Positions 1,733 through 16,437 of a stretch of 36,533 nucleotides of DNA are shown piece after piece. This DNA comes from Candidatus Doudnabacteria bacterium CG10_big_fil_rev_8_21_14_0_10_41_10 (GTDB taxonomy: Bacteria; Patescibacteriota; Doudnabacteria; UBA920; 2-01-FULL-50-11): the NCBI GenBank assembly GCA_002773695.1, contig PFAJ01000049.1:1-36533 (forward strand), read 5' to 3'. The notes under the pieces were generated by a model, which saw only the letters and a list, made by a program, of their open reading frames with translations, was not told the DNA's origin and did not search any database. The translations under genes were made by a program, and so were the position numbers. Within the stretch, counting starts at the first letter, position 1. Every line of letters starts with the position of its first letter.

Positions 1733-2119
1733 CTAGCTCTCGATAATGCCCACGCACTTTTTGCTACCACAATAACATTTCATACGCACATTCGGAGGCA
1801 ACTCTTCTTTATAGTCCCCTGTAATCTCCTCGTCTTTTATTATGTCGCGCTTGGCAGTATCATAAAACTATTTTGCGGTCGTGTTAGCATTATAAGAACA
1901 ATTAACATATTTTTCAGGATCTTGCATGATAATATATTTTCCATCCATATACGAAATATATCGTTTTTCATCTTCGGTCATCTTCGCGACTTCTTTATGT
2001 GGCAAGGTGTTTGAAATATCCCACCGCAAAACAGTTTCCCCGGTTTTAAAATCACGCCCCGCATAAACACCAGAGCCGTGAATACCAGATTCTTTTTCGA
2101 TTATATCGTTTATTCCCAT
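1733..2119 (-). pseudogene. decayed SET-domain protein-lysine methyltransferase
   Basis: The frame reads as a small SET-domain protein of about 127 residues. The N-terminal SET motif is present as GIHGSGVYAGRDFKTGE, then a central GKYIIMQDPEKYVN segment, and the C-terminal half carries EEITGDYKEELPP and the post-SET CYCGSKKC cysteine cluster. A TAG stop at 1868-1870 splits the two halves in the same frame. The normally invariant NHSC motif that forms the S-adenosylmethionine pocket reads NCSY, so both the His and the Cys are lost. A nonsense codon plus loss of core residues argues for true decay rather than a sequencing error. It sits alone between def-fmt and priA. SET proteins are frequent in CPR genomes but their bacterial targets are mostly unknown. 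Confidence 0.8.
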
Positions 2120-12160: not shown

Positions 12161-13045
12161 TTAAGTTAATTTATGCTTGATCAGTTCATATACCAACTTT
12201 GCCGCGAGAAAATTTGGAGCTTCGAAACCATGGATCGGGGCAAGCTCCACCACGTCCGCACCGATGATGTTTTTTGATTTAAATACACCGTTTAACAAAT
12301 CAAGGAGTCGTTCCCACGACAGCCCTCCCGGCTCCGGGGTGCCCACAGAAGGCATTATTGAAGGGTCTAGGCCGTCGAGGTCAATGGTTATATATACATC
12401 CTTTGGGAGGCTTTTTAAAATTTTGGCAACTGGAACATCAGTGCCATAAAAAGTCGTCACTTTTTTCTTCGTGTCCGCCCGGCCCATAAATTCTTTAACT
12501 TCTGGATTGGTATTTCTTATCCCTACTTGAGTAATTTTTATATTTTGGTCCAGTATTCGACGCATCACGCAAGCGTGTGAATACTTTGAACCTTCAAAAC
12601 TATTTAATAAGTCTGTATGCGCGTCAATTTGTAAAACCGCAAAGTTTTTATTTTTTTTCTTGAGCGCGCGAGTAACTCCGGACGTTATTGAATGTTCCCC
12701 TCCTAAAACAAGAGGAAATTTATTTTTCGACACCGCCCAATCCCCTACCGCCTCTGTTACACCATCAACCGCCTCTTTGGCAGAATTGCGCGATAAAATA
12801 AATTCATCCAGTAAAAAAATATCTGTATCTATGAACCCATCAAGCAGAACCCCTTTTTCATCAGACCACATCTCATCCAAAAACCGAGAGTTTCGCACAA
12901 TCGCAACCGGCCCTTCTTTTGCGCCAGAGCCGAACGACACCGTTGAATCATAAGGAAACTGAAAAATCGCAAGTTTTGATTTTTCAAAATCTTGTTTCTC
13001 AAGGGCTCCAAAGTTATATTTCCATTGTTCGTAAAGTTTTTTCAC
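12161..13045 (-). CDS. speB: agmatinase / ureohydrolase
   Basis: A dinuclear manganese hydrolase of the arginase-agmatinase family, expected to split agmatine into putrescine and urea. The 294-residue product carries the metal-binding motifs GGEHSIT, QIDAHTDLLNSF and ITIDLDGLDPSIMP, and ends with the DVVELAPIHG segment. The SHACVMRRI and PEPGGLSWE segments are typical of agmatinases rather than arginases. Its place in a cluster with an arginine decarboxylase and a deoxyhypusine-synthase-like enzyme supports agmatine as substrate. The ATG lies 1 nt after the stop of the broken SET gene, and a terminator follows. Confidence 0.9.
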   Translation of the reverse strand: MKKLYEQWKYNFGALEKQDFEKSKLAIFQFPYDSTVSFGSGAKEGPVAIVRNSRFLDEMWSDEKGVLLDGFIDTDIFLLDEFILSRNSAKEAVDGVTEAVGDWAVSKNKFPLVLGGEHSITSGVTRALKKKNKNFAVLQIDAHTDLLNSFEGSKYSHACVMRRILDQNIKITQVGIRNTNPEVKEFMGRADTKKKVTTFYGTDVPVAKILKSLPKDVYITIDLDGLDPSIMPSVGTPEPGGLSWERLLDLLNGVFKSKNIIGADVVELAPIHGFEAPNFLAAKLVYELIKHKLT

Positions 13046-13046
13046 G

Positions 13047-13543
13047 CTATTTATTGTTAATTTTTGGTAAAAGATAGGGCGAAAATAAAAATTTCAGTAA
13101 ATTTTTCTTATATTTAGACAAGTATTTAAATCCTTTAATGCGCTTGAAAAACTTTTTACTACCGCATTTACACTCAAAATCAGTCCTAAATACCCGCATA
13201 TCATATTCTGTAGTTAAATAATTATAAATAATTTCCTTGTTTTTGGGTATTCTTTCAAGTGCTTTAAATTCCATTTTTTTCGAAATCAATAAAAGCATTT
13301 GGGTTGCAACCATGGTTTATAAAGTCCCCCACAACAAAATCATAGCTATCAAGGAATAAGCCCCCCATTTGAAGAGATTCGGGATAAGGTTTTTAATATA
13401 CCTTCCAATTTGATAATCCTTTCGTTTTTTCTATATACTTTGTTCGAAAAAAGGGATAAACCTTTTCCTTCAAAATACACTATTCGCAATCCCACGGGAG
13501 GCTTTAACTTGAACAATTTTTTTCGATCAAATATCCAAATCAT
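13047..13543 (-). pseudogene. SET-domain methyltransferase gene with two frameshifts, inside the polyamine operon
   Basis: Joining three frames restores one small SET protein. The first has GKGLSLFSNKVYRKNERI, the second carries LFLDSYDFVVGDFINHGCNP, and the third has IPKNKEIIYNYLTTEYDM and the post-SET CKCGS. The breaks lie in a CCC run near 13385 and in an A6 run near 13280. Unlike the copy at 1733-2119, the NHGC core and the Glu...Tyr catalytic segment are intact; the last post-SET Cys is Phe. Spacing is 1 nt to the gene before and 1 nt to speB after, so the gene was built as a coupled operon member. Both lesions are homopolymer indels, so a sequencing or assembly error must be excluded before calling it dead. 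Confidence 0.75.
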
Positions 13544-13544
13544 C

Positions 13545-14669
13545 TCAATTTTTTTTAGCTTTATCCATTCTTTGCATTACTGCTTTTAAAATAACCGGCC
13601 ACGCAATTGTTGCGTCGGCTATCACTTCAGCATATTTACCGCCTCTACTAACGGGCATAAATTTACCCCAAGAACTCCCTTCGGAATACGTACAACCGGA
13701 AAGTCCTCCCCAATGCGCGGGTTCGGGACAAATTCTGACGCCATATGAGTACATTCGGTTGTAAGGTTCGGATTGATTCCACGGGTCTTTAATGTTGAAA
13801 TATTTCGAAGGGTCGGCTCCATCTTTATCTCTCCATCGGATCAAATCGAGAAATGGTGCTACTTGTTGAGCCCAATTTCTTGGCACACCACCGCCAACAG
13901 TAAAGATCCCCGCTTTCTTGCTTTTTAAGAATAAACTTGTAAAATGTTCCAGGTCGCCGAAAGGATCAAACACCAAACTTTTCTTCCCTGTTTTTTTTTG
14001 CAGCCTGTTGAAAAGAGCGAAATCCAAGCCATATTCTGAATCAGAAAAGGCCGGGATATAAACGGGAATATTTTTTTTATAGGCGCTTTTTAAAATTGAT
14101 TTCTGTTCTGGTTTCAACTTTGAAATCAGGTATTCCCCCATTTTTTCATTTATTTCGTGGCTGGAAACTGTTTGCCCCGGCTCAAACTTTGATAATACGG
14201 CATGGATATCCCCTTCTAAATCATCGAGGTTTTTTTCGAGCTCTAAGGTATCGTATATCCGATCATAACCTTTTTCACGTAGCTCTTTGTCGGTCATTTG
14301 ATCAACTTTGTATTTGAAATGGCTCATACCTAATCCCTCGACCATTCCATGGGTCATAAGCGCGCCGGTCGAAACCATCGCGTTTATCATGCCGCGGTCA
14401 ATCATTTCACAAATCAAAAGTCCCATTTTAGCCGCGGTCATTGCTCCGGAAAAAGTCCCTACAACAAACGTATCTTTGTCTGTCACCATTTCGCGCAAGA
14501 TATCCGCCGCCTCGCCTAAAGCGCGTCCGCCAAAAGCGGTTGATTTCATTTCGGTTGCCAATTCATCAAAATCTGTAACTTTATCCAAATCTAAGGAGTG
14601 TAACGGATCAAAACCGTCATCAGCACCGCTGTAAACTTTTTGAATTTTATCTTCATTATATTTGATCAT
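13545..14669 (-). CDS. deoxyhypusine-synthase-like protein (probable bacterial homospermidine-type synthase)
   Basis: A 374-residue member of the deoxyhypusine synthase family, which uses NAD to move an aminobutyl group between amines. Family landmarks are present: GAMTAAKMGLLICEMI, the TGALMTHGMVEGLG segment, the NAD-binding TVGGGVPRNWAQQ loop and EGSSWGKF with the lysine that forms the enzyme-imine intermediate. Bacteria lack eIF5A, so the substrate is unlikely to be a protein; bacterial relatives are known to make homospermidine or related polyamines. It lies 6 nt after speA and 1 nt before the SET gene, and speB follows, so putrescine made by SpeA plus SpeB would be at hand. The exact product cannot be read from the sequence. 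Confidence 0.85.
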   Translation of the reverse strand: MIKYNEDKIQKVYSGADDGFDPLHSLDLDKVTDFDELATEMKSTAFGGRALGEAADILREMVTDKDTFVVGTFSGAMTAAKMGLLICEMIDRGMINAMVSTGALMTHGMVEGLGMSHFKYKVDQMTDKELREKGYDRIYDTLELEKNLDDLEGDIHAVLSKFEPGQTVSSHEINEKMGEYLISKLKPEQKSILKSAYKKNIPVYIPAFSDSEYGLDFALFNRLQKKTGKKSLVFDPFGDLEHFTSLFLKSKKAGIFTVGGGVPRNWAQQVAPFLDLIRWRDKDGADPSKYFNIKDPWNQSEPYNRMYSYGVRICPEPAHWGGLSGCTYSEGSSWGKFMPVSRGGKYAEVIADATIAWPVILKAVMQRMDKAKKN

Positions 14670-14675
14670 GTATTT

Positions 14676-16097
14676 TTACCACCCAAATCTTTTACCAACA
14701 TCTTCAGCAGTCTCACGTGTCCGTGTGACAGTGATTAGACCGCTGTCGGCAGAAAGTTGCGCCGGGTTAGAAAGTAAACAATGATTTGAAGCAAGCGCGT
14801 CTTGATAGGCTCCTGTGTCAAAAAATGCTACATACAAATCGTCTCCATTCTCCACTTCGGTACGTTTTGGTAGTCTAACATAACTCCCGCCGGCTGTATA
14901 TTTGTCATCCGAATCGCATGAAGAGCCTGCCAACCATACGCGTTCGAACGTTTTTGCGTGTAAATGATTTATGGGAATTGCGTGCCAGCGTTGTTTTATT
15001 GCCCAAGTGTCCAACAAATCATTCATAAAACTACCGTCAACAAAATACCATTTTTTTGCCACTCCTCGGTTGATCTTTTTTTCTGCCAGTATTTTAAATA
15101 TTGTTATCTGCGCGGGAGCCACCACCCACCTCCCCCACTCAACAACCATGTTTGGGTGAGGAATTCCCGCGCGTTCAGCTTGTATTTTCAGGGTTTTTAC
15201 AATACCTTTAACCGCGCTTTCCAGAGAAAAAATTTTTTTCTTTTCGTAGGCAACGGGCATCCCCCCGCCGATGTCTAAAGTATCCAAAGAAGGGTTTATT
15301 TTTTTTAGCTTGATATAGTACTTCATCACCAATCGCGCGCTCCCAACCAAATCTTCCAGTCGTTGGATTTGCGAACTTGCGTGATAATGAAGAACTTTTA
15401 AATTTCTTATTTTTCCGATTTTTAGCAAATCTTGAAATGAAAAACCAAACTGATCGACTCGTTTGTCCCAATGTGATTTGATTTTTAAATCTGGGTCCAC
15501 CCGTACACCCAAGTCGCCACGATACCCTCGTAAATAATCAAGTTCTAAAAAATTCTCGATAATCGGAATAATCTCTAACCCCTTTCCTTTTAATTCTTCA
15601 ATCAAACTTAAATATCGTTTTGTCTTTGGTCCGTTACAAATAACTCGAATCCGCGAGGAAAACTGATCCTGCTCCCACAACCGTTTTATCAACCACAGCT
15701 CGTTGGCGCTTCCCACTTCAATATGACCCCCTTCCGAAATAATCGGCAAAACGAATTCCTTATTCTGGTTGACCTTCATTGGATAATGAAATCTAAATTT
15801 GCCTTTGTACTTGTTTTGCTTTAAATAGTAAGCGAATATTTCATGAATCTCATTTAACCTCTCCTCAATAATAAACGGAAAAATAATTTCCAAACTGGTT
15901 CCAAAGCGTTTTACCAAATCAAAAATTTTGTACTGGTAATTCCCTTGTCTAACAACTAATTTTCCTTCTCGGTCAATATCAAAAGGCCTGGTGCCCACTT
16001 CTTTATCCCCAAGCTTCCAAATTTTCTTATAATTTTTCCTTACTTGTTTTTTTCGTCTCTTTCTTCTTTTCAAGGACTTCTTTTTCTTTTTCACCAT
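14676..16097 (-). CDS. speA: biosynthetic arginine decarboxylase, SpeA-like, with very basic N-terminal tail
   Basis: A PLP-dependent alanine-racemase-fold enzyme that converts arginine to agmatine. Seen are the PLP-lysine segment FHYPMKVNQN, HYHASSQI, the phosphate-binding LDIGGGMP loop, the GSSCDSDD segment with the second-subunit catalytic Cys, and FDTGAYQDALASNHCLLSNP. At 473 residues it is much shorter than E. coli SpeA (about 660) and lacks the inserted helical domains. Residues 1-25 are extraordinary: 17 of 25 are Lys or Arg. There is no other Met before the conserved part, and the ATG lies 1 nt after the hpf stop, so the tail appears genuine. It may bind RNA, ribosomes or other polyanions. 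A related decarboxylase specificity is possible, but the speB neighbour favours arginine. Confidence 0.85.
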   Translation of the reverse strand: MVKKKKKSLKRRKRRKKQVRKNYKKIWKLGDKEVGTRPFDIDREGKLVVRQGNYQYKIFDLVKRFGTSLEIIFPFIIEERLNEIHEIFAYYLKQNKYKGKFRFHYPMKVNQNKEFVLPIISEGGHIEVGSANELWLIKRLWEQDQFSSRIRVICNGPKTKRYLSLIEELKGKGLEIIPIIENFLELDYLRGYRGDLGVRVDPDLKIKSHWDKRVDQFGFSFQDLLKIGKIRNLKVLHYHASSQIQRLEDLVGSARLVMKYYIKLKKINPSLDTLDIGGGMPVAYEKKKIFSLESAVKGIVKTLKIQAERAGIPHPNMVVEWGRWVVAPAQITIFKILAEKKINRGVAKKWYFVDGSFMNDLLDTWAIKQRWHAIPINHLHAKTFERVWLAGSSCDSDDKYTAGGSYVRLPKRTEVENGDDLYVAFFDTGAYQDALASNHCLLSNPAQLSADSGLITVTRTRETAEDVGKRFGW

Positions 16098-16098
16098 A

Positions 16099-16437
16099 CT
16101 ACTGTTGTGCTTTTAATTCCCTCTGGGCCTTTCGGTTTTTCGACACACTTTTTTCTTTATTTTTCTCTATCTGCGTTACTATTTTTGGAATAAGCGTGTC
16201 AATAGACGCGTATAAATCAGTCATCGTACTTTCGGCGCGATACACCGCGTGAGGAGCGTCAACTGTTGCTTCCGCTCGATATTTTTCACCAGTATGTTTC
16301 GTTTCTAAAAATTCAAGCTCAATTCTCGCGATTTGCAGTTTTCCGCTATGTCGGTACAGTGATTTGAGTTTATTTTCCACATATTCCCGGATAGCATTCG
16401 TCAGTTTAAAATTTGTTGTCTTGATTGTGATATTCAT
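16099..16437 (-). CDS. hpf: ribosome hibernation-promoting factor (short HPF/RaiA family)
   Basis: A small ribosome-binding protein that occupies the decoding centre in resting cells. The 112-residue product has the family layout: MNITIKTTNFKLTNAIREYV, a HTGEKYRAEATVDAPHAVYR strand pair and the DLYASIDTLIPKIVTQIEKNKEK helix, ending in a Lys/Arg/Gln-rich tail. It lacks the C-terminal dimerisation domain of long HPF. Its ATG overlaps the murB stop as ATGA and its stop is 1 nt before speA, so it is made from the same mRNA as cell-wall and polyamine enzymes. Confidence 0.9.
   Translation of the reverse strand: MNITIKTTNFKLTNAIREYVENKLKSLYRHSGKLQIARIELEFLETKHTGEKYRAEATVDAPHAVYRAESTMTDLYASIDTLIPKIVTQIEKNKEKSVSKNRKAQRELKAQQ

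Follow-up and report, generated by a model that had tools for sequence, protein, structure and literature searches.

The locus described here raises the question of whether a SET-domain protein methyltransferase gene lodged in a bacterial polyamine operon belongs to the pathway or is a passenger in it. The window, by which we mean the whole 36,533-nt stretch of DNA that was analysed, comes from a Patescibacterial genome of 1.08 Mb (70 contigs, 94% complete), and its polyamine genes are read from the minus strand in the order hpf, speA-like, deoxyhypusine-synthase (DHS)-like, SET-like stretch and speB-like (Table 1). A preliminary description had proposed that arginine decarboxylase, agmatinase and a DHS-like enzyme make homospermidine or a similar polyamine, with an intervening SET gene, spaced by 1 nt on both sides, as an apparent pathway member. 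Family scans find the speA-, DHS-like and speB genes intact at the positions given there, and the tight spacing holds at both junctions: the synthase stops at 13545 and the SET-like ATG lies at 13543, and the SET-like stop at 13047 is followed by the speB GTG at 13045. The SET homology between synthase and speB is likewise real, but the intact reading frame is not. The locus is thus probably a Patescibacterial polyamine operon of the homospermidine type that carries a SET pseudogene passenger.

Table 1. Coordinates of the polyamine operon and of the SET-related stretches in the window.
Feature	Position	Strand	Evidence and remarks
speB-like agmatinase	12161..13045	-	GTG start, 294 aa; PF00491 1.8e-59; TIGR01230
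SET-domain methyltransferase pseudogene	13047..13543	-	pieces in three frames; read-through PF00856 2.9e-9
deoxyhypusine-synthase-like (speY-type) gene	13545..14669	-	374 aa; PF01916 4.7e-78
speA-like alanine-racemase-fold decarboxylase	14676..16097	-	473 aa; PF02784/PF00278; Lys/Arg-rich N-terminus
hpf/yfiA ribosome hibernation factor	16099..16437	-	TIGR00741 67.7 bits; 1 nt upstream of speA
second SET remnant, outside operon	1808..2077	-	PF00856 3.5e-7 with 1 TAG in frame

The speB-like protein exceeds the agmatinase cut-off (TIGR01230, 213.8 bits vs 174.3). The speA-like protein matches both the speA and the lysA models below their cut-offs (184.6 vs 624 for speA); its best solved relative is the biosynthetic arginine decarboxylase 3nzq (1.3e-28), although its 473 aa make it shorter than the biosynthetic arginine decarboxylase (ADC) models (624-636 positions). 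The synthase is a clear DHS homologue in which the equivalent of the catalytic lysine is kept (K336, motif SSWGK) and an Asn occupies the position of the archaeal DHS active-site His in the alignment. It falls below every NCBI DHS equivalog cut-off, including that of the homospermidine biosynthesis model (NF001980, 164.9 bits against 450), and is therefore filed as SpeY-like and not as a proven SpeY; the sub-threshold scores of this protein and of the speA-like protein leave their exact substrates unproven. In the DHS tree, the window synthase groups with those of G250 (its nearest relative, 54%), G012 and G269, and a contig search with it recovered just two homologues, both archaeal and distant, and yielded no close relative in which the orthologous SET is intact.

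The polyamine reading of the cluster is supported, and the pathway is of an already known kind, namely the SpeA-SpeB-SpeY homospermidine route seen in Anabaena, in clusters of SpeD-derived ADC with SpeB and SpeY (PMC10407285) and in a Pelagibacter cluster (PMC9992855). Like these, the window clusters a putative arginine-type decarboxylase, an agmatinase and a DHS-homologous synthase; unlike them, it has a synthase of a separate subfamily and an inserted SET pseudogene. No gene of the spermidine-synthase family (PF01564, spermine_synth) was found in the 94% complete genome, which is consistent with a route to homospermidine; a spermidine route was rejected on this ground. Accordingly, the SpeA-like enzyme is predicted to decarboxylate arginine to agmatine, SpeB to hydrolyse the agmatine, giving putrescine, and the NAD-dependent SpeY-type synthase to join two C4 units into homospermidine. 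In an alternative order, the synthase might couple two agmatines first, with SpeB then trimming the product. The 1,9-bis(guanidino)-5-aza-nonane synthase (NF002699) is also a DHS homologue of polyamine clusters, but the window synthase scores 200 against its cut-off of 500; another Patescibacterial synthase (G193) passes that cut-off (577 vs 500), and hence either agmatinase or synthase may act first. Elsewhere, SpeD-family genes lie directly upstream of DHS-like genes in three loci (L076:5942-6457, L077:3422-3937 and L078:5978-6493, of which only L076 is backed by Pfam AdoMet_dc), an arrangement that resembles the published SpeD-derived arginine decarboxylases.

Across the order, hpf is a conserved syntenic neighbour of speA. 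A block of hpf and speA, in most cases accompanied by mur genes, is found in nine of its genomes (G005, G007, G011, G013, G017, G021, G032, G034 and G040), and SET is present in none of them (0/9). Downstream of speA, these genomes display one of two gene pairs: synthase with speB, whose order varies, or agmatine deiminase with carbamoylputrescine amidase. The SET-free mur/hpf-speA-speY/speB version recurs in G005, G007, G013, G017, G021, G032 and G034, with other ORFs intervening in G017 and hpf unlabelled in G021, and the agmatine deiminase and carbamoylputrescine amidase replace agmatinase beside speA in G011, G040 and G193. As the agmatinase and the deiminase pair both consume agmatine and swap beside speA, the decarboxylase most likely makes agmatine, which is the likely shared intermediate of the swapped blocks. 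The synthases are less constant: in four genomes of the window's own family they belong to separate branches of the DHS tree, and the hpf-speA blocks as a whole (L028-L047, L074-L083, L155) contain different DHS subfamilies, even within that family. Such mixing within conserved blocks suggests repeated replacement by transfer.

We found no single frame that covers 13047-13543. The N-terminal piece of the SET-like stretch (ATG at 13543, 64 aa), the middle piece (DSYDFVVGDFINHGCNPNAFIDFEKN), which carries the catalytic NHxC, and the C-terminal piece, which carries the post-SET region, lie in three different successive frames, each of which contains stops, with a +1 offset at a G6 run (13361-13366) and a further +1 offset at an A7 run (13274-13280). 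In Pfam, the separate pieces are without a match, and the read-through is recognised as SET. One explanation is that the frame is unbroken in the living organism and that both offsets are consensus errors at homopolymers, as each is a single base within such a run and the pieces align well to SET outside them. Against this, the open genes of the window, about 29.8 kb in all, contain about 175 comparable homopolymer runs and no break at any of them, and the SET stretch has two breaks among its six runs. This comparison, which is partly circular since the comparison genes were chosen for being open, indicates that sequence errors are not general and argues for decay over a general error, with a local error still conceivable. 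Further, the motif residues have eroded independently of frame: in alignment with intact relatives, the window copy reads NHGC in place of NHSC, and the post-SET zinc motif CxCGxxxC reads CxCGxxxF, its last (third) Cys being replaced by Phe. The window SET also sits on a tree branch of 1.88 (median 0.38). Nor do homopolymers explain the in-frame TAG of the second SET remnant in the window, and we consider consensus error to be quite unlikely.

Slippage can occur at homopolymer runs such as G6 and A7, and the offsets could hence be real and rescued by transcriptional slippage or frameshifting to yield some full-length SET. However, one message would need two such rescues at runs that are short, for a product whose catalytic and zinc motifs are eroded, which makes this highly improbable. 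The window SET gene is therefore best read as a pseudogene passenger, a decaying insertion between synthase and speB that would yield no full-length enzyme and have no role in this genome.

The second SET remnant, which lies between a peptide deformylase gene (1034-1534) and a 111-aa ORF (2390-2725), is similarly decayed: apart from its TAG, its NHSC motif reads NCSY in the alignment. Its nearest intact relative is in G067 (57% identity). With both SET stretches decayed, the genome appears to be losing its SET genes.

Given the gene broken over three frames and the recurrence of the block without SET in about nine of the order's genomes, the proposed membership of SET in the pathway is unsupported here. 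The preliminary description had further suggested that SET might methylate the synthase, the basic tail of SpeA or a polyamine-bound ribosomal target. A comparably basic SpeA N-terminus (L032, in G005) occurs in a cluster without SET, as do shorter basic starts (L033, L035), and methylation of SpeA was rejected as a candidate. In this genome we find no support for SET acting on SpeA, the synthase or ribosomes.

An association of SET with agmatine enzymes does extend beyond this genome. An arginase-family gene is present in 9 of the 70 SET-bearing genomes, and in four of these nine (the window, G003, G324 and G200) it shares one cluster with SET. In G003, which belongs to the window's family, an intact SET is separated from the downstream speB by 1 nt, within a plus-strand run of a GARS-like ATP-grasp gene, SET, speB and the synthase, joined by a 4-nt overlap, a 1-nt gap and a 10-nt gap. 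In G324, from another family, an intact SET overlaps speB by 4 nt, and its orthologues in G400, G401 and G402 stand in the order SET, kinase, EamA transporter and agmatine deiminase. In G200, an intact SET is three genes from speB, following a run of speA, synthase and speB and two small genes. The clustering in four of nine genomes should exceed chance expectation; with the window excluded, the chance of at least three co-locations in ten pairs is about 1e-5 to 1e-4, a rough figure that assumes 0.4-1% per pair and a distance rule picked after looking. Since the adjacency is not unique to the window, a SET-agmatine link survives as a live but unproven lead that rests on the intact relatives instead of the window. 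We found nothing relevant in the literature on SET with agmatinase, or on SET in CPR/Patescibacteria.

It could therefore be that SET is a real, recurrent part of Patescibacterial agmatine or homospermidine modules, methylating a small molecule or a pathway enzyme, and that the window holds a dying copy. The tight G003 run, the overlap with speB in G324, the nearby agmatine deiminase genes of its orthologues and the rarity of such co-locations by chance all point this way. So does a solved SET relative, BurB, a methionine S-methyltransferase that methylates free methionine and is encoded in a DMSP/malleicyprol biosynthetic cluster (PMC12542666, PMC7496086). Like BurB, the proteins considered here are small bacterial SET proteins in a biosynthetic cluster, and they are detectably similar to it in sequence (4.1e-4 for the window read-through and 1.8e-6 for the G324 SET), which makes a small-molecule role for Patescibacterial SETs conceivable. 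Unlike BurB, they lie in another pathway.

On the other side, the SETs linked to polyamine genes come from different places in the SET tree (4 changes), and no polyamine genes neighbour the SETs of G537 and G558, close orthologues of the G200 copy. Most polyamine blocks, moreover, are without SET, and the commonest labelled SET neighbour across the phylum is a sensor histidine kinase. By counts restricted to labelled families, histidine kinases fill 16 of 226 immediate-neighbour slots of 121 SETs, vs 4 of 252 slots at least three genes away, and speB fills 3 of the 226. These mixed neighbours indicate that SET genes occur in a variety of accessory gene neighbourhoods. On balance, we regard SET as a recurrent part of such modules as fairly unlikely. 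Somewhat less likely still is the specific version in which, in several Patescibacterial lineages, an intact SET directly upstream of agmatinase is a functional operon member methylating a small molecule of the pathway, in a BurB-like manner, or one of its enzymes, with the window as a decayed copy. A shared origin of the window and G003 SETs was also considered and set aside, as the tree does not support them as one clade; it does not reject this either (AU p = 0.139). We hence retain the window SET as a pseudogene passenger, for which the intact SETs in polyamine operons of other genomes make a former function possible.

The SET-kinase pairing was observed at L161, L167, L183, L207, L224, L229, L232, L245, L249-L251, L253, L255, L256 and L263; these loci, drawn from several SET clades, often also encode a small 'CDPxxExCF' protein or a membrane protein resembling TrmB and possibly represent a signalling module. 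Separately, a purD/GARS-like ATP-grasp gene adjoins or lies near SET at L030, L264, L260 and L185 (genomes G003, G559, G467 and G024).

The window thus combines an already known route to polyamines, in a bacterium with a reduced genome, with gene decay, and the tight spacing around a broken gene is a warning against inferring function from spacing. Its wider value lies in a recurring arrangement in which unrelated Patescibacteria have an intact SET placed close to agmatinase or agmatine deiminase. Should these SETs prove functional, they would provide a metabolic context for bacterial SET enzymes that are not host-directed effectors.
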